From Hyphomicrobiales bacterium (GTDB lineage Bacteria > Pseudomonadota > Alphaproteobacteria > Rhizobiales > Beijerinckiaceae), in assembly GCA_027483945.1 (NCBI GenBank), contig JAIXTM010000002.1, forward strand, positions 1 to 64,000: a stretch of DNA of 64,000 nucleotides, read 5' to 3'. The number at the start of each line of letters is the position of its first letter. The first letter of the stretch is position 1. Positions 1,655 to 62,233 of this stretch are shown here, piece by piece. The notes beneath the pieces are model-generated. The model saw only the letters and a program-made list of their open reading frames with translations, made no database searches and was not told the DNA's origin. The translations under genes and the position numbers were made by a program.

Positions 1655-2587
1655 ATGACGCAGGGGCAGGATTCCGGCACCGCCTTCGCGCAAAGGTTGG
1701 CGCAGGTGGCGGACCGGGTCGAGGCGATCCTTGCCGCCTGGCTGTCGGACGACCCGGCGCCGGCGGAGATCGCCCGCCCGGCGCGCCTGATGGCCGCCAT
1801 GCGCCATGGCGCCCTCGGCGGCGGCAAGCGGCTGCGCCCGTTCCTGACGGTGGAGGCGGCCGGCCTGTTCGACGTGGCCAGGGACGCCGCGGTTCCGGCC
1901 GGTGCCGCCATCGAGTGCCTGCACTGCTATTCCCTCGTCCATGACGACCTGCCCGCCATGGACGACGACGACCTGCGCCGCGGCCGGCCCACCGTCCACC
2001 GGGCCTATGACGAGGCGACCGCCATCCTGGCGGGCGATGCGCTCCTGACCCTCGCCCTCGAGAAGCTGGCGGCGGAGAGCCATCCCGATCCGGCCATCCG
2101 CGCCGCGCTCGTCGCGGGGCTCGCCCGGGCCGGGGGCCTCGGCGGCATGGTCGGGGGCCAGATGCTCGATCTCGAGGCGGAGGGCCGCTACGGCGAGCCC
2201 GTGCGCGAGGCGGGCCGCACCCGCACCCTCCAGGCCATGAAGACCGGCGCGCTCCTCGCCTTCTCCGCCGAGGCGGGCGCCATCCTGGGCGGCGCGGACC
2301 TCGCCGCGCGCGCCGCCGTCGCCGCCTATGGACGGGCGCTTGGCGCCGCGTTCCAGATCGCCGACGACATCCTGGACCGCACGACCGACGCCGCGACCCT
2401 GGGCAAGGCGACCGCCAAGGACGCCGGGAAGGGCAAGGCGACGCTCGTGGACCTGCTGGGAATGGAGGCGGCGATCGCCGAGCGCGACCGCCTGGCGGGC
2501 GAGGCCGTCTCCGCGCTCGCCCGCTTCGGCGCCAGGGCGGACCTCCTGCGCGAGGCCGCCCGCTTCACGGCGAGCCGGCGCAACTGA
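1655..2587 (+). CDS. ispA: Farnesyl/geranyl diphosphate synthase (polyprenyl synthetase)
   Basis: A 310-residue short-chain isoprenyl diphosphate synthase that condenses DMAPP or GPP with IPP in the cytosol. The first aspartate-rich motif is in SLVHDDLPAMDDDDLRRG with the typical RGRPTVH following; the second is FQIADDILD. GGGKRLRP binds the IPP diphosphate. The ATG at 1655 is preceded by AGGAG at 8 nt spacing. Length and motifs fit IspA better than the octaprenyl synthases. ispG lies 2 kb downstream on the other strand. Exact product length cannot be proven from sequence. Confidence 0.92.
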   Translation: MTQGQDSGTAFAQRLAQVADRVEAILAAWLSDDPAPAEIARPARLMAAMRHGALGGGKRLRPFLTVEAAGLFDVARDAAVPAGAAIECLHCYSLVHDDLPAMDDDDLRRGRPTVHRAYDEATAILAGDALLTLALEKLAAESHPDPAIRAALVAGLARAGGLGGMVGGQMLDLEAEGRYGEPVREAGRTRTLQAMKTGALLAFSAEAGAILGGADLAARAAVAAYGRALGAAFQIADDILDRTTDAATLGKATAKDAGKGKATLVDLLGMEAAIAERDRLAGEAVSALARFGARADLLREAARFTASRRN

Positions 2588-2623
2588 AGGCCGAGGCGCG
2601 ACCGCGCCAGGCCTTCCACCCGC

Positions 2624-4540
2624 TTAGATGGTCACCTGCGTGCCGACCTCGACCACGCGGCCCGTGGGGATCTGGAAGAAGTCCGTGGCGTCGGACGCGG
2701 TCTTGGACAGGCCGATGAACAGCTTGTCCTGCCAGATCGGCATGCCGGACTGCGCCGCCGGGCGGATCGAGCGCCGCGACAGGAAGAACGACGTCAGCAT
2801 GATGTCGAACTTGAAGCCGCGCTTGCGCAGGACGGCGAGGCCCTTGGGGATGTTCGGCGTCTCCATGTAGCCGAAGGTCATGACGACGCGGGAGAACGTG
2901 TCGTCCACGGGCGCGATGGTCACTCGCTCCTCCTCCGAGACCCGCGGCGTGTCCACCGCCCGGACCGTCAGGATCACGTTCTTCTCGTGCAGCACCTTGT
3001 TGTGCTTGAGATTGTGGAGCAAAGCCGCCGGCGCGGTCTCCGGGTCGCTCGTCAGGAAGACCGCGGTGCCCTTGACCCGGTGCGGCGGGCTCTTCTGCAG
3101 CATGGCGCAGAGCTCCGACAGCGGCACGTCGGTCCGGCGCGTCTTGTCGAACAGGATGCGCGTGCCGCGCACCCAGGTCCCCATGAGCACGAGCAGGCCC
3201 GCCGCCATCAGGATCGGCAGGTAGCCGCCCTCGAAGACCTTCAGCATGTTCGCGCCGAAGAACATCAGCTCGATGGACAGGAACGGGATCATGACGAGCG
3301 CCACGCGGGGCCAGTTCCAGCCCCAGCGGCTGCGGAGCACGACCGTGGTCATCAGCGAGGTGAGGATCATCACGCCGCAGACCGCGATGCCGTAGGCCGA
3401 GGCGAGGTTCGCGGACGAGCGGAAGGTGACGACGAGGATGATGACGCCGATCATCAGGAGCCAGTTGATGCGCGGCAGGTAGATCTGGCCGGACTGGGTC
3501 TCCGAGGTGTGCCGCGTGTCCATGCGCGGCACGAGCCCGAGCTGGATCGCCTGGCGCGACAGCGAGAAGGCGCCCGTGATGACCGCCTGGCTGGCGATGA
3601 TCGTCGCCATGGTGGCGAGTATCACGAAAGGCAGCAGCGCCCAGCCCGGAACGAGCAGGAAGAACGGGTTCTCTCCCGCCGCCGGATTCTCCAGGACCAG
3701 GGAAGCCTGGCCCAGATAGTTGATGACGAGGCAGGGGAAGACGAGGGCCAGCCAGGCCCGGACGATGGGCTTGCGGCCGAAATGACCCAGGTCGGCGAAC
3801 AGCGCCTCCGCGCCGGTGATGGCGAGGAACACCGCCCCCAGCGCGACGAGGCTGCCGATGCCGTGCTCGCTGAGATAGGCGACCGCGTAATACGGGTTGA
3901 ACGCCTTGAACACCTCCGGATGGGAGGCGATGTGCGGCACGGCGGCAACCGCCATGCAGAGGAACCAGACGATGGTCATCGGCCCGAAGAAACGGGCGAC
4001 CTTCGCGGTGCCGCGGCTCTGCACCATGAAGATGCCGACGATGATGACCAGCGTGATCGGCACCACGTAGTCGTTGAAGGTCGGCGTGACGAGCTTGATG
4101 CCTTCGACCGCCGACAGGACCGAGATCGCGGGCGTGATCACCGCGTCGCCATAGAACAGGGCGGCGCCGATCAGCCCGAGCAGGAAGATGGCACCCTTGG
4201 ACCCGGCGCGCTGTCGGGCGAGCGCCATCAGCGAGAGGATTCCGCCCTCGCCCTTGTTGTCGAGCCGCGTGACGATCAGCACGTATTTGAGCGTGATGAT
4301 CGCGGTCAGCGCCCAGATGATCAGCGACGTGACGCCGTAGATCTCGTCGGGATGCACGACGCCGTCGGCGGCCGCCGTCGCGAAGGCCTCGCGGAAGGCG
4401 TAGAGCGGGCTCGTGCCGATATCGCCGTAGACGATGCCGACTGCGCCCACAGCCAGCATGAATTGCGAGGAGTGCCCATGGCCCCCGTGGGCGCCGGCCG
4501 CTCCGCCTTGCGGAGCCTGGATGTCATCGCTGGTTGTCAA
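2624..4540 (-). CDS. kup: Low-affinity potassium uptake protein Kup
   Basis: A 638-residue KUP/HAK/KT family K+/H+ symporter in the inner membrane. The family motif GIVYGDIGTSPLYAFREAF lies near residue 35, about twelve hydrophobic segments follow to about residue 460, and a cytoplasmic C-terminal domain ends the protein. A short Gly/His-rich stretch precedes the first membrane segment. The likely start is the TTG at 4538-4540, since no in-frame ATG gives a complete first segment; a later ATG (MLAVGAVG) would clip the leader. Convergent with ispA, 36 nt apart. Confidence 0.95.
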   Translation of the reverse strand: MTTSDDIQAPQGGAAGAHGGHGHSSQFMLAVGAVGIVYGDIGTSPLYAFREAFATAAADGVVHPDEIYGVTSLIIWALTAIITLKYVLIVTRLDNKGEGGILSLMALARQRAGSKGAIFLLGLIGAALFYGDAVITPAISVLSAVEGIKLVTPTFNDYVVPITLVIIVGIFMVQSRGTAKVARFFGPMTIVWFLCMAVAAVPHIASHPEVFKAFNPYYAVAYLSEHGIGSLVALGAVFLAITGAEALFADLGHFGRKPIVRAWLALVFPCLVINYLGQASLVLENPAAGENPFFLLVPGWALLPFVILATMATIIASQAVITGAFSLSRQAIQLGLVPRMDTRHTSETQSGQIYLPRINWLLMIGVIILVVTFRSSANLASAYGIAVCGVMILTSLMTTVVLRSRWGWNWPRVALVMIPFLSIELMFFGANMLKVFEGGYLPILMAAGLLVLMGTWVRGTRILFDKTRRTDVPLSELCAMLQKSPPHRVKGTAVFLTSDPETAPAALLHNLKHNKVLHEKNVILTVRAVDTPRVSEEERVTIAPVDDTFSRVVMTFGYMETPNIPKGLAVLRKRGFKFDIMLTSFFLSRRSIRPAAQSGMPIWQDKLFIGLSKTASDATDFFQIPTGRVVEVGTQVTI

Positions 4541-4675: not shown

Positions 4676-5938
4676 TTATTCCGCCGCGTCGCGGCCCACC
4701 CGTCCGAAGCGCTTCTCCACGTAGTCCTGGACCAGCGTCATGAAGTCCTGGGCGATCGTCGGCCCGCGCAGCGTGACGGCCTTGCGCCCGTCGATGAAGA
4801 CCGGCGCGGTGGGCGCCTCGCCCGTCCCGGGCAGCGAGATGCCGATATCGGCATGCTTGGACTCGCCCGGCCCGTTCACGATGCAGCCCATCACGGCGAC
4901 GTTCAGCGCCTCGACGCCGGGATATTTCACCCGCCATTCCGGCATCGACCGGCCGATCCAGGACTGGATGTCCTGGGCCAGTTCCTGGAACACGGTGGAG
5001 GTCGTGCGCCCGCAGCCGGGGCAGGCCGCCACCAGCGGCACGAAGGCGCGGAAGCCCATCGTCTGCAGCAATTCCTGCGCCGTCTTCACCTCGAGCGTGC
5101 GGTCCCCGCCCGGCTCGGGGGTCAGCGAATAGCGGATCGTGTCGCCGATGCCCTCCTGCAGGAGGATGCCCATGGCGGCGGACGAGGCGACGATGCCCTT
5201 GGTGCCCATGCCGGCCTCGGTCAGGCCCAGATGCAGGGCGTAGTCGGACCGGCGCGCCAGGTCCCGGTAGACGCCGATCAGGTCCTGGACGTTGGAGACC
5301 TTGGCCGAGAGGATGATGCGGTTGCGGTTGAGGCCCATCTCCTCGGCGCGCTCGGCCGAGAGCAGCGCCGACTGGACCATGGCCTCGCGCGTGATGGCGC
5401 GGGCCTCCAGCGGGCGTTCGGCCCGGGCGTTCTCGTCCATCAGGTGGGTGAGGAGTTCCTGGTCGAGCGAGCCCCAATTGGCGCCGATGCGCACCGCCTT
5501 GTTGTGGCGGATCGCCATTTCGACGATCTGGCCGAACTGCCGGTCGCGCTTGTCCTTGAAGCCGACATTGCCGGGATTGATCCGGTACTTGTCCAGCGCC
5601 TCGGCGCAGGCCGGATGGTCGGCGAGCAGCTTGTGGCCGATATAGTGGAAGTCGCCGACCAGGGGCACCTGGATGCCCTTCCTGGCCAGCCGGTCGCGGA
5701 TATGGGGCACGGCCGCCGCGGCCTCGTCCCGGTCAACCGTGATGCGCACGATCTCCGAGCCCGCCAGCGCCAGGTCAGCCACCTGGCGCACCGTCGCCTC
5801 GATATCCGCCGTGTCCGTGTTCGTCATCGACTGGACGACGACGGGGGCGTTCCCGCCCACGACGACGCGCCCCACGCGCACCGCGACGGTCTGGTGTCGG
5901 CGGGCGGGGCCGGCGGGAGCGGTCGGGATGTCGATCAT
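4676..5938 (-). CDS. ispG: 4-hydroxy-3-methylbut-2-enyl diphosphate synthase (flavodoxin)
   Basis: A 420-residue [4Fe-4S] enzyme of the MEP isoprenoid pathway that converts MEcPP to HMBPP. The N-terminal TIM barrel begins with [12 protein letters not shown], and [10 protein letters not shown] and [11 protein letters not shown] follow. The C-terminal Fe-S domain shows ACPGCGRT and [18 protein letters not shown], supplying the cluster cysteines. The ATG at 5936-5938 is preferred over the TTG at 5980 because related proteins start just before [16 protein letters not shown]. zur ends 52 nt upstream on the same strand. Confidence 0.95.
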
Positions 5939-5990
5939 GGGCGATCCGGCGGAGGCGTTCGCGTTGAGTTGCGCCTGCAACGTGGTTTCG

Positions 5991-9533: not shown

Positions 9534-10187
9534 CTACCCTCTCAGCCGCCAGACGCTGGAGCGCTTGACCTCCGCGTCCTCCAGCGCCCGCGTCACTGGC
9601 ACCTCGTAGGTGGCGACGACCTCCAGCCGCTCCAGCGGGAGATAGGACCGGCGCGGATCGCCGATCAGGACCTGGGCGCCCCGGGCCTTGAGGCGCGACA
9701 GCCAGTCCAGAATGCGCTCCGCCATGCCGCGCTCGTAGCAGACATCCCCCGCGAGCACGTGGGTCCAGCCCTCGTCGGCGCCGATCAGGTCCTCGCCCCT
9801 CACCCGCACGGCGACCCCGTTGGCCGCCGCGTTGAGCGCGATCGCCGCGTGCGCGAAGGGATCGATGTCGTTGGCCTCTGCGGACGACGCGCCCGCCATC
9901 ATCGCGGCGATGGCGACGAGGCCCGAGCCCGAGCCGACATCCAGCACCCGTCCGCCGGCCACCGCTTCGGGATGATCGAGGAGATAGCGGGCGAGCGCCT
10001 GCCCGCCGGCCCAGGCAAAGGCCCAGAAGGGCGGCGGCAGGCCGATCTCGCCCAGCTCGTCCTCGGTCTTCTGCCAGAGCGCGGTCGCCTCGTCGGCGAG
10101 ATGCAGGCGGATCGCCGGGGCGTGGGGGACCGGCAGCAGCCGGGTATGGCCGCGGATGAAGGCCTCGGCATCGGCGATCTCAGCCAT
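9534..10187 (-). CDS. METTL20-like class I SAM-dependent protein methyltransferase
   Basis: A 217-residue seven-beta-strand methyltransferase. Motif I is VLDVGSGSGL (81-90), the acidic residue after the next strand is in ANDIDPFA (D107), and the family D-x-x-Y motif appears as GDVCY (147-151). FWAFAWAGGQALARYLL is typical of the METTL20/ETFB-lysine methyltransferase group (COG3897). The Agrobacterium homologue is known to methylate ETF-beta and ribosomal protein L7/L12; etfB lies at 47.5 kb. Its ATG overlaps the upstream glycosyltransferase gene by 8 nt, so the two are co-transcribed. Substrate is inferred. Confidence 0.8.
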   Translation of the reverse strand: MAEIADAEAFIRGHTRLLPVPHAPAIRLHLADEATALWQKTEDELGEIGLPPPFWAFAWAGGQALARYLLDHPEAVAGGRVLDVGSGSGLVAIAAMMAGASSAEANDIDPFAHAAIALNAAANGVAVRVRGEDLIGADEGWTHVLAGDVCYERGMAERILDWLSRLKARGAQVLIGDPRRSYLPLERLEVVATYEVPVTRALEDAEVKRSSVWRLRG

Positions 10188-11328
10188 GGCGGGCGAGCAT
10201 CGCGCGGTAGAGGCCGGTGACCGCCGCCATCACCGCCTCTTCGGTATGTCCGTCGAGAACCCGCGCGCGGGCGCTTGCGCCCATGGCGGCGACCCGGGCC
10301 GGATCGGCGGCGAGCATCGCGATCCGGTCGGCCAAGGCCGCCGCGTCGTCCCGCGCCACCACGAAGCCGTCGGCCCCGTCGCGCACGAAGGTGCGGCAGC
10401 CGGGGACGTCCGTCGTCAGCACCGCGCGGCCGCAGGCGGCCGCCTCCAGGATCGCCCGGGGCAGGCCCTCCCCGCCGCGCGAGGGCATGAGCGCCGCGTG
10501 ATGCCCGGCCCAGACATGCGCGATGTCCCGCGACGGTCCGGACCAGGCGATGCCGGGACGGCCCGCCCAGTCGCGCAGGGTCGCCTCCGGCACCGCCTTC
10601 GGGTTGGAAGGGTCGGGCGCACCGACCAGCGTCAGCGTGACGTCGGCGCCCCTCGCGCGGGCGGCCGTGACCGCCTCCACGGCGACGTCGACGCCCTTGG
10701 ACCACAGCATCCGGCCGACAAAGGCGAGCCGCAGCGGCGGCGCCGGCGGCAGGGGCTCCGGACGGAAGAGATCAGGATCGATCCCCGCCCCGCCGACGAT
10801 GGTGACGGGAGGATCGCCGGGCTTCAGGCCGAAGATCAGCGGATCGTCGGGGTTCTCGAAGAGGTAGCGCGTCCCCGGCCCCTCCAGCGGCCCGCGCACG
10901 ATCCGCGCGATCGCCCCCCGCGCCAGGCGCGCCGCCGCATCCTGCCGCGCCGCCAGGAAGCCGAGGCCCGTCACCGCATAGACGCGGGACGCGATGCCGG
11001 CGAGGCGCGCCGCCGCGCCGCCGATCAGGATCGCGCGCAGGGCGATGCAATGGACGATGGCGGGCCGCTCCGCCTTTAGGATCGCGGCGAGCCGGCGGGT
11101 GGCGGAGACGACGTCCAGCGGATTGAGGCTCTGCCGTTCGGCCTCCAGCGGGATGACGCGCAGCCCCTCCGCCTCCAGCACCGCCCGGTGGTCGCGCACC
11201 CGCGCGATGACCAGGACCTCGAACCCCGCCGCCCGGGCGGCGCGCGCCATCGGGAGGAAATGCGAGACGAAGAACCAGTCCTCGGTGACGATGAAGGCAA
11301 GCCGGGGCGGGGAGGCGGGACGCGTCAT
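10180..11328 (-). CDS. Glycosyltransferase family 4 protein
   Basis: A 382-residue GT-B enzyme. The N-terminal Rossmann half starts LAFIVTEDWFFVSHFLPMARAAR, the linker has VVGGAGIDPDLF-like sequence, and the C-terminal GT4 half has LAFVGRMLWSKGVD and the donor-binding PSRGGEGLPRAILEAAACG. It lacks a signal peptide and acts at the cytosolic membrane face. The N-terminus resembles capsular and O-antigen N-acetylgalactosaminyl or fucosyl transferases, but donor and acceptor cannot be read from sequence and no polysaccharide cluster surrounds it. It overlaps the downstream methyltransferase by 8 nt. Confidence 0.85.
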   Translation of the reverse strand: MTRPASPPRLAFIVTEDWFFVSHFLPMARAARAAGFEVLVIARVRDHRAVLEAEGLRVIPLEAERQSLNPLDVVSATRRLAAILKAERPAIVHCIALRAILIGGAAARLAGIASRVYAVTGLGFLAARQDAAARLARGAIARIVRGPLEGPGTRYLFENPDDPLIFGLKPGDPPVTIVGGAGIDPDLFRPEPLPPAPPLRLAFVGRMLWSKGVDVAVEAVTAARARGADVTLTLVGAPDPSNPKAVPEATLRDWAGRPGIAWSGPSRDIAHVWAGHHAALMPSRGGEGLPRAILEAAACGRAVLTTDVPGCRTFVRDGADGFVVARDDAAALADRIAMLAADPARVAAMGASARARVLDGHTEEAVMAAVTGLYRAMLARHG

Positions 11329-57599: not shown

Positions 57600-58250
57600 A
57601 TGATGCGCGTCCCGCCCGGCAAGGCGTCCATCCTGATCGTCGGATTGCTCGCTTTGGCCGGAACCGCCGCCGCCCTATACGGGACGGGCGGGGTTCCGGG
57701 CAACCGCGGCGCGGATGCCGCCTGCGCCGCCTCCGCCGCGAAGATCGCCGCGCTGAAGCCGCTGGCGACCGGCGCAGTCGCCGCCTTCGCGGTTCAGGAC
57801 AGCCCCAAACCCCTGCCGGCCCTGACGTTTTCGGCAAAGGACGGCGCCCGCACGGGTCTCGCGGACTTCCGCGGCCGCACCGTGCTTTTGAACCTCTGGG
57901 CCACCTGGTGCGCCCCGTGCCGGGAGGAGATGCCGGCCCTCGACCGCCTCCAGGCCGATCTGGGCGGCGAGGCCTTCACGGTCGTCGCGGTCAATATCGA
58001 CACGCGAAACCTCGAGCGACCCAGGACCTGGCTTCAGGAGGCGGGCATCGCGAACCTCGCCTATTACGCCGACCCGCAGGCCAAGGTGTTCCAGGAGCTG
58101 AAAAGCGTCGGCAAGGCCTTCGGCATGCCGACCACGCTCCTCGTGGGCCCCGACGGCTGCGAAATGGGCATCCTGTCCGGCCCCGCCGACTGGGCGAGCC
58201 CGGAAGCGAAGGCCCTCGTCACCGCCGCCACGGACGGCAGACCGCGCTAG
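57600..58250 (+). CDS. tlpA: TlpA-family thiol:disulfide interchange protein
   Basis: A 216-residue membrane-anchored periplasmic thioredoxin. An N-terminal hydrophobic anchor (10-28) is followed by the thioredoxin fold with redox motif [17 protein letters not shown] (CAPC near 101) and cis-Pro in [10 protein letters not shown]. It supports cytochrome c or oxidase maturation. The conserved TlpA insertion and a second Cys pair (AACAAS, DGCEMG) are visible. Start MMRVPPG at 57600, divergent from argH. Confidence 0.9.
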
Positions 58251-58330
58251 CCGCTTCGCCTCCGCCTTATTCCCGTCTCGACGCTGCGTTTTGCCGGGCC
58301 GACAATGGCCATCCGTCGAGGGAGGGACCG

Positions 58331-60430
58331 ATGGCGGACATCACCAGCGCGACGCCGCTCTTCGCCATCCGCGCCGTGGCGCTGGACGCCGAGACCACCG
58401 GCCTCGACGTGCGCCGCTCGCGGCTCATCGAGATCGGCGCGGTCCATGTCGACGGCACCCGCATCGACCGCGCCAACGCCTTCCAGTCCCTCGTCGCCTG
58501 CCCCGAGCCCATCTCCGCCAGCGCCACCGCCGTCCACGGCATCGACGCGGCAACGCTCGAGGGCGCGCCGGACTTCGCCATCCTCTATCCCGGCCTCAAG
58601 GCCTTCATCGCCGACCGGGTCATCGTCGGCCATACGATCGGCTTCGATCTCGCCATGCTGCGCCACGAGGCGGAGCGGATCGGGCAGGCCTTCGCGCCGC
58701 CTCCGGCCCTCGACGTGCGCCTCCTCGCCCAGATCGCGGACCAGCGCCTGCCCTCCTATTCGCTGGAGGCGCTGGCGGCCTGGCTTAACGTCGCGCTGGA
58801 GGACCGCCACCGGGCCATGGGCGATGCCATGGCGGCGGCGCGCATCCTGGTCGCGCTCGCGCCGCGCCTGCGCGAGAAGAACATCCGCACCGTGGGCGAG
58901 GCGATCGCCGCCAGCCGGCGCATCGCCGACGCCATGGCCGGCACCGCCCCGATCGCGTGGGAATTGCCGGGCGCCTCCGAGCGATCGGCGATCCCCAAGC
59001 TCGATTCCTATCCGTATCGCCATCGCGTCGCCGAGGTCATGAACCCGGATCCGGTCTTCCTGCCGGCCGACACCCCGCTGACGCAGGCCCTCGCCGTCAT
59101 GGCCGGGCACAAGCTCAGCTCCGTCCTCGTCGGAGACGCGGATGACGGTCCGGAGGCGCTGGGCATCGTCACGGAGCGCGACGTGCTGCGCCACATCGCG
59201 GCTGGCGGCGCGGCCGCCCTGTCCGATACGCTGGAGGCGCTGGCCTCCCGCCCGGTCCTCCACGTGCCCGCAGATGCCTTCCTCTACCGCGCCATCGGCC
59301 GGATGAGCGCGAGGCGCGTGCGGCATCTCGCCGTGACGGCGGACGAGATGCGGGTCGTCGGCATCGTGACGACCCGGGATCTCCTGCGCCTCCGGTCGGA
59401 ATCGGCGGTCGCCATGGGCGACGACATCGACGGGGCGCAGGACACGCAGACGCTGGGCCAGGCCTGGGCCAAGCTGCCGGCCATGGCGGCGAGCCTCGCG
59501 GCCGAGGGCGTGGAGGCGGCCATCATCGCCGCCGTCGTGGCGCGCGAGGTCGGGGCGCTGACCCGCCGGGCCGCGATGCTCGCGGAGGCGGAGCTGACGG
59601 CGCAGGGCAGCCCGCCGCCCTGTCCCTACGCGGTCCTGATCCTCGGGTCGGCCGGCCGCGGCGAAAGCCTGCTGGCCATGGACCAAGACAATGCCATCGT
59701 CTTCGCCTCAGGACCCGAAGGCGGGCCGGAGGACCTCTATTTCGCCGCGCTCGGCCAGCGGATGACCGAGATCCTCAACGAGGTGGGCGTGCCCTTCTGC
59801 AAGGGCGGGGTCATGGCGTCGCGCCCCGCCTTCCGCGGCGCGCTCGACACCTGGCGCGAGCGGATCGCCCATTGGCTCGAGCGCTCGAGCCCGGAGGACC
59901 TCCTGGCCGTCGATATCTTCTTCGATTTCCGCGCCGTCCACGGCGACCGGGTCCTGGCGGGAACGCTGTGGCGCGAGGCCTGGGAGGCGGCACGCAACCG
60001 CACTGCCTTCCTCAAGCTCCTCTCGGAGGCGGCGGGCGAGACCCGCGGCGCCGTCACCTTCCTCGGCCGGCTGCGCACGGAGGAGGACGGACGGATCGAC
60101 CTGAAGCTCGCCGGCCTCAAGGCCATCGTCACCACGGCCCGCATCCTGGCGATCCGCCACGGGATCGCGGTCCATTCCACCCGCGACCGCATCGCCGGCG
60201 TCGCCGCCCTCGACGTCGGCGGGGCCAGCGACCTCGCCGCCCTGCGGGACGACCACGCGGCGATCCTCGAGGCGATCCTGCGCCAGCAGCTCGCCGACAT
60301 CGCCGCCGGCCGGCCGCCGGACAACCGCGTCGATCCGACGATCCTGACCCCCGCCGAGGCGGCCGGGCTGAAACGGGCCCTTGCCCACCTCTCGGTCCTG
60401 GACGACCTGCGCCGCGACCAGTTGAGCTGA
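58331..60430 (+). CDS. DnaQ-like exonuclease / CBS pair / DUF294 nucleotidyltransferase fusion
   Basis: A 699-residue three-part protein. 1-180: DEDDh exonuclease fold with D19/E21 (LDAETTG), D106 (HTIGFDLAML), H160 and D165 (HRAMGDAM), so the active site looks complete. 230-355: two CBS domains (VMNPDPVFLP, VTERDVLRHI, IVTTRDLLRL) that bind adenine nucleotides. 400-700: GlnD-like DUF294 nucleotidyltransferase with GSAGRGE (439-445) and DQD (451-453), then its helical C-terminus. ATG at 58331 follows GGAGGGACCG. Related proteins are known in alphaproteobacteria; substrate and role are undefined. Confidence 0.88.
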   Translation: MADITSATPLFAIRAVALDAETTGLDVRRSRLIEIGAVHVDGTRIDRANAFQSLVACPEPISASATAVHGIDAATLEGAPDFAILYPGLKAFIADRVIVGHTIGFDLAMLRHEAERIGQAFAPPPALDVRLLAQIADQRLPSYSLEALAAWLNVALEDRHRAMGDAMAAARILVALAPRLREKNIRTVGEAIAASRRIADAMAGTAPIAWELPGASERSAIPKLDSYPYRHRVAEVMNPDPVFLPADTPLTQALAVMAGHKLSSVLVGDADDGPEALGIVTERDVLRHIAAGGAAALSDTLEALASRPVLHVPADAFLYRAIGRMSARRVRHLAVTADEMRVVGIVTTRDLLRLRSESAVAMGDDIDGAQDTQTLGQAWAKLPAMAASLAAEGVEAAIIAAVVAREVGALTRRAAMLAEAELTAQGSPPPCPYAVLILGSAGRGESLLAMDQDNAIVFASGPEGGPEDLYFAALGQRMTEILNEVGVPFCKGGVMASRPAFRGALDTWRERIAHWLERSSPEDLLAVDIFFDFRAVHGDRVLAGTLWREAWEAARNRTAFLKLLSEAAGETRGAVTFLGRLRTEEDGRIDLKLAGLKAIVTTARILAIRHGIAVHSTRDRIAGVAALDVGGASDLAALRDDHAAILEAILRQQLADIAAGRPPDNRVDPTILTPAEAAGLKRALAHLSVLDDLRRDQLS

Positions 60431-60487: not shown

Positions 60488-62233
60488 ATGCGCTATCACA
60501 TCGGCCTTGCCACCACCTTCCACGATCCGGCCATCGCCATCGTGGGCCCGGACGGAAACCCGCTCTTCGCCGAGGCGACGGAGCGTTACCTGCAATACAA
60601 GCGCGCGCCCAATTGCGAGCCGGACAGCGGCCCGCGCATGGCGTCGCTCCTGAAGGAATACCTGCCGGCCGGCGCGGAGGTCGCCATCGCGACCAGCTGG
60701 GGCGAAGCCTTCACCGGCTTCCTCAACCAGTCGGCGCGGGCCGGCGCCTACGATTTCGCCGCCCTGGCCGCCCTCTCGCCGGACTTCAACCGCTCCATGG
60801 TGCCGGAGCGCGCCGAGCGGGCGCTGATCGGCCAGCTGCATCTGGCGCAGGCGCGGGCCGGCTACGGCACGATCCTCGGCCTCGACCGGGCCTTCGGCCG
60901 CGCCAACGTGGCGGGCGGGGTCAGGCGCTTCGGCCACCATCTCACCCATGCCGCCTATGCCGCCTTCGCCTCGCCCTTCGCCGACGCCACCGTGCTCGTC
61001 GTCGATGGCATGGGCGAGACCGGCGCCTCCGCCATTTTCGGCTACAGGGACGGCCAGCTCACCGAGCTGAAGCGCAATCGCGGCCGGGAATCGATCGGCT
61101 TCTATTTCGGCCTTGTCACGGATCTCGCCGGCTTCGACCAGCTCAAGGGCGAGGAATGGAAGATCATGGGCCTGGCGCCCTATGGCCGCCGCGACCCCGA
61201 ACTTCTCGGCCTCCTGCGCCGCATGTACCGGATCGAGAACGGCAAGCTCGCCTTCGCCGACGAGGCGACGATCCGCGACGCCTGCCGCGCCATCCTCGCC
61301 CGCCGGCCCGCCAATGCGACCGATGTCGGCTGGGCCGACCTGTCGCGCTGCGGCCAGGACGTGTTCGAGGAAATGATGGACGTCTATCTGGACCAGGCGA
61401 AGGCGCTCGGCTCCTCGCGCAACCTCGTCGTCGCCGGCGGCTGCGCGCTCAATTCCTCCTTCAACGGCAAGATCGCGGGCCGGGCCGGCTTCGACGCGGT
61501 CTTCGTGCCCTCCGCCCCCGCCGATGACGGCAACGCGCTCGGCGCCGCCTGGCTGAGCTATGCCGCCGACAATCCCGGCTGGAGGCCGGACGAGGTGGCG
61601 CGCGAGCGCGGTCCCCTGACGCCCTATCTGGGTAGCCGCGTCTCCACCGAGCCCCTGGAGCGGATGACCGGCTGGGAGCCGCGCCTGAGGAAGCTCGGCG
61701 ACGACGTGGTGCCGGAGACCGCCCGCCTGCTCGCCGAGGGCAAGCTCGTCGGCTGGGTCCAGGGCCGCGCCGAATTCGGCCCGCGGGCGCTGGGCAACCG
61801 CTCCATCCTCGCCGATCCGCGCCCGGCGGACGCCAAGGACATCCTTAACGCCAAGGTGAAGTACCGCGAGGCCTTCCGGCCCTTCGCGCCCTCGATCCTG
61901 GCCGAGGCGGCGGCGGACTGGTTCGAGGACTACCAGGACAGCCCCTACATGGAGCGCACCCTGGTCTGGCGGGAGGACAAAAGGTCCCGCGTCCCCGCCG
62001 TCGTCCACGAGGATGCGACGGGGCGCCTGCAATCGGTCACCGCCGACCGCAATCCGCGCTACCACGCCCTCATCAGCGCCTTCCGCGACATCACCGGCGT
62101 GCCGGTCGTGCTCAACACCTCCTTCAACGTGATGGGCAAGCCGATCCTCCACACCGCCGAGGACGCGATCCTCATGTTCTACACGACCGGCCTCGACGCC
62201 ATCGTGGTGGAGGACTGGCTGCTGGCGAAGTGA
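60488..62233 (+). CDS. NodU/CmcH-family carbamoyltransferase
   Basis: A 581-residue two-domain carbamoyltransferase. The N-terminal TsaD/YrdC-fold part has metal His residues in RFGHHLTHAAYAAFASPF and VVDGMGETGAS (Asp); the C-terminal part has GWVQGRAEFGPRALGNRSILADPR and VVLNTSFNVMGKPI. It should transfer a carbamoyl group from carbamoyl phosphate to a hydroxyl of a sugar or small molecule. Nod factor and antibiotic clusters are absent around it, so the acceptor is unknown. ATG at 60488. Confidence 0.9.
   Translation: MRYHIGLATTFHDPAIAIVGPDGNPLFAEATERYLQYKRAPNCEPDSGPRMASLLKEYLPAGAEVAIATSWGEAFTGFLNQSARAGAYDFAALAALSPDFNRSMVPERAERALIGQLHLAQARAGYGTILGLDRAFGRANVAGGVRRFGHHLTHAAYAAFASPFADATVLVVDGMGETGASAIFGYRDGQLTELKRNRGRESIGFYFGLVTDLAGFDQLKGEEWKIMGLAPYGRRDPELLGLLRRMYRIENGKLAFADEATIRDACRAILARRPANATDVGWADLSRCGQDVFEEMMDVYLDQAKALGSSRNLVVAGGCALNSSFNGKIAGRAGFDAVFVPSAPADDGNALGAAWLSYAADNPGWRPDEVARERGPLTPYLGSRVSTEPLERMTGWEPRLRKLGDDVVPETARLLAEGKLVGWVQGRAEFGPRALGNRSILADPRPADAKDILNAKVKYREAFRPFAPSILAEAAADWFEDYQDSPYMERTLVWREDKRSRVPAVVHEDATGRLQSVTADRNPRYHALISAFRDITGVPVVLNTSFNVMGKPILHTAEDAILMFYTTGLDAIVVEDWLLAK

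Follow-up and report, generated by a model that had tools for sequence, protein, structure and literature searches.

What would a single bacterial protein do with a 3′-5′ exonuclease, a pair of CBS domains and a nucleotidyltransferase? The question is raised by one gene of the window, i.e. the whole 64,000-nucleotide stretch from a Hyphomicrobiales bacterium (contig JAIXTM010000002.1) that was analysed. The gene forms a single open frame of 699 aa, and a preliminary description had its parts right: the three-way fusion, the exonuclease residues D19, E21, D106, H160 and D165, the two CBS domains and the GSAGRGE...DQD motif were all found, by sequence and Pfam, where it had placed them. The C-terminal DUF294_C domain was absent from that description. 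RNase_T, the two CBS domains, DUF294 and DUF294_C each exceeded the Pfam curated cut-off, and with PF03445 and PF10335 above cut-off together with GS-x-GRGE...DxD, the protein belongs to the DUF294/DUF294_C group. The AlphaFold2 model of the whole protein (59 sequences) had a pLDDT of 90.5 and a pTM of 0.89. Coordinates are collected in Table 1.

Table 1. Coordinates of the fused gene and its parts in the window, and of frames from two neighbour clusters in other loci
Feature	Coordinates	Strand	Evidence
Whole gene: DEDDh exonuclease - CBS pair - DUF294 nucleotidyltransferase - DUF294_C	58331..60430	+	Open frame, Pfam, AlphaFold2
Ribosome-binding-site-like GGGAGGG, 4 bases ahead of ATG	58320..58326	+	Sequence
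DEDDh 3′-5′ exonuclease domain, residues 16-173	58376..58849	+	Pfam RNase_T, E 4.2e-28
Two CBS domains, about residues 233-356	59027..59398	+	Pfam CBS, E 2.8e-24, two stretches, best 233-290
DUF294 nucleotidyltransferase domain, residues 381-522	59471..59896	+	Pfam, E 6.7e-37; GlnE/DrrA fold
Catalytic motif GSAGRGE...DQD, residues 439-453 (D451, D453)	59645..59689	+	Conservation; GSAGRGE from 439, DQD from 451
D532, third conserved acidic residue	59924..59926	+	Conservation
DUF294_C helical domain, residues 559-688	60005..60394	+	Pfam, E 2e-26
Uncharacterised neighbour cluster, representative (locus L093)	2564-3430	-	
Uncharacterised neighbour cluster, representative (locus L030)	5271-5987	+	
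Frame relating these two clusters (locus L134)	9899-10597	+	

The N-terminal part has a complete D-E-D-H-D site, matches DnaQ/PolC exonuclease structures with Z scores of 21-24, and also has an RNase T-like fold; judged by its domain and residues, it is predicted to be active as a DEDDh exonuclease. The conserved motif and the predicted structure served to place the end of the second CBS domain. DUF294_C is grouped with HEPN in Pfam clan CL0291 (PMC3710099). Pfam gave no match to the cyclic-nucleotide-binding domain (PF00027) in the fused protein, and neither HD nor ACT appeared in its Pfam table up to an E value of 0.1.

An assembly chimaera was ruled out by full-length homologues in many genomes; in a same-genus genome the homologue is 84% identical across residues 1-698. 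A phage gene was rejected as well: 26 phage records matched, none over more than 80% of the query, and the 8 listed of these 26 all fell within the exonuclease part. This part alone also matched in PADLOC, to general DEDDh and PDC-S48 models, and the reading as a defence system was set aside. Scanning the gene region for promoters and terminators yielded nothing beyond chance. The neighbours (DUF4175, a lysA-like pyridoxal-dependent decarboxylase, argininosuccinate lyase and a thioredoxin-like protein, with a carbamoyltransferase and then thiC downstream) suggest no common pathway. The carbamoyltransferase gene (60488-62233) begins 57 bases downstream of the fused gene, on the same strand; co-transcription is possible, and no functional link was seen.

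How widespread is the fusion? PF03445 matched in 38 of 60 related genomes, and in 22 of them at 60 bits or more, which we took as true DUF294; the rest, weaker and for the most part in frames near 1000 aa, are probably of GlnE/GlnD type and were left out. The fusion was present in 11 of the 60 genomes, one of which (G044) has it split in two between different contigs. A scan of named genomes, from which the best 80 of 173 loci were taken, gave mostly Hyphomicrobiales and other Alphaproteobacteria, plus a group of Gammaproteobacteria; its query selects fusions, and the frequency of fused genes was not derived from it. Of 100 loci collected, 88 had a full-length fusion, and 78 non-redundant fused homologues were left once rows at least 90% identical were removed. 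One fusion, 52% identical, comes from a contig of 4.25 kb whose record is titled Acidobacteria (L029); the contig is probably misbinned and alphaproteobacterial.

The preliminary description had named loss of either active site in most homologues as the result that would speak against it; both sites were intact in nearly all. On the nucleotidyltransferase side, G439, S440, R443, E445, D451, D453 and D532 were retained in 78/78 fused homologues, and D532 presumably completes the usual acidic set of nucleotidyltransferases, with a catalytic role. On the exonuclease side, D19, E21, D106, H160 and D165 were each found in 77 or 78 of the 78, and all five in 77. Since the mean frequency of the top residue per column is just 0.61 across the same homologues, the near-invariance of the active-site residues reads as selection. 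The sole deviant is the Blastochloris sulfoviridis fusion (L051, 6001-8079), with E21D, H160P and D165R by alignment and an intact nucleotidyltransferase. In the CBS pair, I279, T281, E282, R283 and D284 were invariant (78/78); in the second CBS domain, S or T stands at position 347 in all 78, and D350 is kept in 74. A T/S-x-x-D-type motif is therefore kept in both CBS domains. This motif is linked to adenosine ligands in CBS domains, and the sequence thus favours the adenine-nucleotide sensing that had been suggested for the protein.

Because the scan of named genomes selects fusions, an independent sample was drawn, made of 150 genomes of the phylum (completeness of at least 90% asked) searched with PF10335. 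It gave 78 matches in 55 genomes, so that DUF294 proteins are common in the phylum. Two of these matches, in the window's genome (G000) and in G026, are known fusions and were left out; the other 76 genes were fetched, and none was fused. Exonuclease frames were then called with a custom DEDDh profile (above 25 bits). Such a frame was present within 500 bp of 63 of the 76 DUF294 genes, within 1 kb of 67 and within 2.5 kb of 70, and 66 of the 67 frames at 1 kb or less were on the same strand, while in 998 kb only 5 DEDDh frames were farther than 1.5 kb from every DUF294 gene. Across the phylum, DUF294 and DEDDh are near-obligate gene partners, and the partnership was found over many families of the sample. 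The exonuclease head, which had been called less usual, is so as a fusion (2 of 78 matches in this sample) but not as a partner (67/76 within 1 kb). An opposing-activity pair had also been proposed, and a close partnership of the two activities as separate genes fits this proposal.

Conservation was followed in an extended set, which also took in relatives: 76 split pairs, of which 67 came from the sample and 9 from elsewhere, plus 12 lone genes. The exonuclease was downstream in 74 of the pairs, upstream in one, and on the opposite strand in one. G439, S440, R443, D451 and D453 were kept in all fused, split and lone genes (78/78, 76/76 and 12/12); D532 was kept in 74/76 split genes, with E in the other 2, and in 12/12 lone genes. 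In the split exonucleases, D19, E21 and D165 were kept in 74 and H160 in 75. Position 106 was more variable, with D in 51, E in 23 (e.g. L138, L150 and L160) and another residue in 2, one of them I; the change from D to E may alter the use of substrate or metal. Two partner exonucleases, in L191 and on the minus strand of L175, are degenerate, having lost several active-site residues.

For 9 of the 76 fetched DUF294 genes, no exonuclease was found within 1 kb. L117 and L121 were classed as lone with an exonuclease more than 1 kb away, and no exonuclease was seen for L127 and L172, on contigs of just ~7 kb each. Eight lone DUF294 proteins were scanned with Pfam, which found no hydrolase domain inside them. 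In L207 (7003-9561, minus strand), DUF294/DUF294_C is fused to Cache and PAS sensors in place of cNMP/CBS, and no exonuclease frame is present within its 14 kb stretch. The cyclic-nucleotide-binding domain is itself variable among homologues outside the fusion, being present in L117 and L123 and absent in L121. On the exonuclease side, 20 of the 70 frames within 2.5 kb exceeded 450 aa (stop to stop). Frames of ~700-970 aa were seen in L116, L118 and L121 and likewise in L164, L169, L173, L174 and L199. Among six long exonucleases scanned, those of L116, L118 and L121 had weak PAS matches upstream of DEDDh, L118 alone being above cut-off. Given PAS in some exonucleases and Cache/PAS in L207, either partner may bring its own sensor.

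Which process could such a pair control? When the neighbours of the 78 fused loci were clustered, with each cluster named from one representative, VC_2705-family sodium/solute symporters and their small subunits each turned up in 30 loci, hybrid histidine kinases in 20 and ErdR-like regulators in 14. A recount with profiles gave 25, 33, 16 and 14, respectively. The symporter was within 1.4 kb in 23/78 loci, and 26 of the 44 loci that extend 5 kb to either side had at least one of symporter, kinase and regulator. Among the 76 fetched DUF294 genes, 37 had an SSS symporter at 1 kb or less and 46 had one in the region; a symporter or hybrid kinase was in the region of 51. Symporter frames cluster close to DUF294: 37 at up to 1 kb, 6 between 1 and 4 kb, and 1 farther away. 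Over the 60 relatives, 14 genomes had both DUF294 and the VC_2705 symporter, 8 DUF294 only, 4 the symporter only, and 34 neither (P = 2.7e-5, uncorrected for kinship). Genome G039 has the symporter with a weak, GlnE/GlnD-like DUF294 match, which means that the symporter does not need a true DUF294 protein.

In the window's genome, the fused gene (contig C18) is unlinked to the symporter (contig C17). The latter scored 687.9 bits with the VC_2705 model (cut-off 320.75), and C17 also carries the DUF4212 small subunit (81.1 bits, cut-off 26.05) and an ErdR-like regulator at 237.4 bits; ErdR-like regulators score 237-245 bits, below the ErdR model cut-off of 390. A hybrid kinase 59% identical to the representative of the kinase cluster is found on contig C6. 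This representative has a PAS-HisKA-HATPase-receiver layout and fits the NCBIfam NahK/ErcS C-terminal model; its first 650 residues gave no Pfam match at E 0.001, and the N-terminal part has a weak likeness to SSS symporters. We infer that the hybrid kinase is the counterpart of CrbS/MxtR. The link to CrbS/CrbR proper is loose: no ACTU-like CrbR motif was found at 58031-58360, upstream of the window gene, and the motif was not enriched upstream of the fused genes, with 10 of 76 loci vs 7.6 expected for a crude pattern derived from P. fluorescens sites (2 of the 78 loci were dropped for their short flanks). Two further neighbour clusters, present in 20 and 12 of the 78 fused loci, are interrelated through L134, and their representatives (Table 1) matched nothing in Pfam or NCBIfam. 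A small YGGT-family membrane protein lies beside the symporter in L115 (6976-7368, minus strand), and its cluster is near 16/78 fused loci.

Counterparts of both parts have been studied in Pseudomonas, where they belong to the acetate regulon, the DUF294 proteins being described as uncharacterised (PMC8402216, PMC5715377). In P. putida, the gene of the CBS protein, pp_0354, and that of the RNase_T protein, pp_0353, make up one operon, which is part of the acetate (MxtR/ErdR) regulon and is located near glcB and not actP (PMC9927547); ErdR binds the pp_0354 promoter (PMC8402216). In P. fluorescens, the CrbS/R regulon includes Pflu5625, a cAMP/CBS/nucleotidyltransferase protein whose deletion made a negligible difference on acetate (PMC5715377). 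Propionate raises PA3232-PA3235 (PMC9765439). A P. aeruginosa plasmid copy has the order DUF485, acetate symporter, cyclic-nucleotide/CBS protein and exonuclease, with a 4-base overlap between the last two genes, and by gene order the pair on the actP side is PA3233/PA3232. As for phenotypes, deletion of pp_0353, the exonuclease, or of actP-I impaired growth on pyruvate and spared growth on 20 mM acetate, whereas deletion of pp_0354, the nucleotidyltransferase, left growth normal on both (PMC9927547).

The fold of the nucleotidyltransferase half bears on the question of its substrate. Folded alone (pLDDT 94.2), this half matched the GlnE N-terminal domain with a Z score of 25.2 (305 aligned, 3.0 Å), DrrA with 24.0 (293 aligned, 3.7 Å) and the GlnE C-terminal domain with 24.0 (296 aligned, 3.2 Å). 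The next enzyme class, the aminoglycoside adenylyltransferases, reached 8.4, and MNT antitoxins about 5. Poly(A) polymerases and CCA enzymes were absent from its VIA-align list, which is not proof of difference. GlnE and DrrA move AMP onto protein tyrosines. With protein adenylyltransferases at Z 24-25 and other nucleotidyltransferases at about 8 or below, the idea of RNA or a free nucleotide as the common substrate becomes less likely. The nucleotidyltransferase assignment of the preliminary description holds, and its GlnD-like label is better replaced by GlnE/DrrA-like. A fold in common with GlnE and DrrA suggests, and does not prove, a protein substrate.

Our preferred reading, tentative and given nearly an even chance as a whole, is that one chain both writes and erases a reversible nucleotidylylation of a protein while sensing adenylates. 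The DUF294/DUF294_C half would move NMP from NTP to a protein hydroxyl, most likely of tyrosine, the DEDDh half would hydrolyse the nucleoside-5′-phosphate ester so made, and the CBS pair would set the balance between the two by binding adenine nucleotides. It could control how short organic acids are taken up or first used, in surroundings that resemble the MxtR/ErdR (CrbS/CrbR) acetate regulon; candidate targets are the symporter, the small protein that accompanies it and other proteins of such a regulon. What we infer are the reaction chemistry, a protein as substrate, the target and the CBS ligand; the mechanism itself is independent of the labels given to the regulator and the kinase. Can a DEDDh domain act as an eraser? 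Oligoribonuclease is a DEDDh enzyme. One oligoribonuclease hydrolyses pNP-TMP, the p-nitrophenyl ester of TMP (PMC6390093), and as the bond is of the type found in Tyr-O-NMP, a DEDDh domain is plausible in this role. The P. putida phenotypes, i.e. impaired growth without the exonuclease and normal growth without the nucleotidyltransferase, are those expected if unopposed writing shuts the target off. The lack of phenotype of the pp_0354 mutant is equally explained if the nucleotidyltransferase is irrelevant to growth on pyruvate. The pairing, the intact active sites, the single clade of fusions next to L204, the fold match and the symporter and two-component genes nearby speak for the writer/eraser reading; DUF294 genes that lack a close exonuclease, the degenerate partners, the symporter of G039, the unlinked position in the window's genome, the CrbR motif result and the loose link to CrbS/CrbR speak against it.

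The leading rival is RNA decay. DEDDh would degrade particular carbon-metabolism mRNAs, and DUF294 would tail or mark the same RNA, or merely regulate the nuclease. The exonuclease is a good one, with DnaQ/PolC and RNase T-like folds, and mRNA decay was the speculation for pp_0353 of the authors of PMC9927547, who left the mechanism open. However, the nucleotidyltransferase half is GlnE/DrrA-like, Pfam found no RNA-binding domain in the fused protein or in the 8 partner exonucleases scanned, and a purely regulatory nucleotidyltransferase would not need conserved catalytic residues. We consider this rival rather unlikely.

A second rival bears on the origin of the fusion: separate, co-regulated activities of one metabolic response, with no common substrate, may have been fused by operon collapse. 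Adjacent same-strand genes can fuse by chance, and the fused proteins do form one clade without split members (FastTree support 0.83 in the nucleotidyltransferase tree and 0.92 in the exonuclease tree, both rooted on a distant split gene). The mapping of phylogenetic spread that had been advised thus gives 78 non-redundant fused homologues in a single clade, and split pairs across the phylum. Nearest to the clade in both trees is L204 (support 0.90 and 0.94), where a 254-aa exonuclease frame comes first and is followed, after a 9 bp gap, by a CBS-DUF294 frame without the cNMP domain; such an arrangement would be expected of a state before the fusion, or of a fusion that split later. A phenotype reported for the exonuclease deletion only (PMC9927547) would also fit independent activities. 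Yet the pairing extends over many families with strand and order almost fixed (exonuclease downstream in 74/76), and the order is reversed in the fusion while both parts stay together. Moreover, the distances of the partners correlate over the 76 pairs (r 0.50 vs at most 0.11 in 1000 shuffles), a value that still includes shared species history. Operon collapse is, in our opinion, unlikely. A nucleotide-signal switch, in which DUF294 would make a messenger such as a di- or oligonucleotide, an oligoribonuclease-like DEDDh would destroy it, and CBS/cNMP would be receptors or feedback sites, is very unlikely. In its favour, the pairing is of writer/eraser type, oligoribonuclease is believed to cleave 2-mers (PMC6390093), and the messenger-type Hailong HalB is among the fold matches, though at a Z score of just 6.7. 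Against it, GlnE and DrrA rank far above HalB, and the CD-NTase CdnC match is insignificant (Foldseek E 1.9).

The writer/eraser reading, if true, would explain why, of the two deletions, only that of the exonuclease retards growth on pyruvate. If a DEDDh domain did act on a nucleotidylated protein, this familiar nuclease fold would, as far as we know, have gained a new role, and a confirmed mechanism would be a reversible protein switch of a new kind. The wider proposal is that split (much of Pseudomonadota) and fused DUF294-DEDDh form an unrecognised reversible nucleotidylylation switch, with an exonuclease-fold de-nucleotidylylase gating organic-acid uptake by energy state; we hold it with clear reserve. 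Among the open-licence PMC papers that the searches listed, we found no biochemistry or assay for any DUF294-DEDDh member, and nothing on the fusion, the phylum-wide pairing or the writer/eraser model. The fusion and the near-obligate pairing provide a concrete, testable hypothesis for both partners.

How does the protein compare with known systems? GlnE, the glutamine synthetase adenylyltransferase, and the AMPylase domain of DrrA have the same fold, a nucleotidyltransferase with a helical domain over ~300 residues at 11-13% identity, but these enzymes are devoid of a DEDDh or CBS part, and the window protein has both. GlnE takes AMP off with a second nucleotidyltransferase domain of the same fold, so that a nucleotidyltransferase need not have a hydrolase partner, which argues against the writer/eraser reading. 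The closest layout is that of GlnD, where a nucleotidyltransferase writer, an HD hydrolase eraser and an ACT sensor stand in one chain; the window protein likewise combines writer, eraser and small-molecule sensor, with DEDDh and CBS instead of HD and ACT. Its exonuclease domain has the fold and the five active residues of DnaQ, PolC and oligoribonuclease, and unlike these exonucleases it is joined to a nucleotidyltransferase and a CBS pair; it is not a polymerase subunit. Finally, pp_0354/pp_0353, Pflu5625 and PA3233/PA3232 have the same composition, i.e. CBS and a DUF294-type nucleotidyltransferase with a DEDDh exonuclease partner. The pp_0354/pp_0353 type consists of two genes, nucleotidyltransferase first, with an extra cyclic-nucleotide domain, whereas the window protein is one chain, exonuclease first, without this domain. 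P. aeruginosa has ActP and DUF485 where the window's genome has the VC_2705 symporter and DUF4212, and the symporter adjoins the pair in P. aeruginosa but not the window gene.
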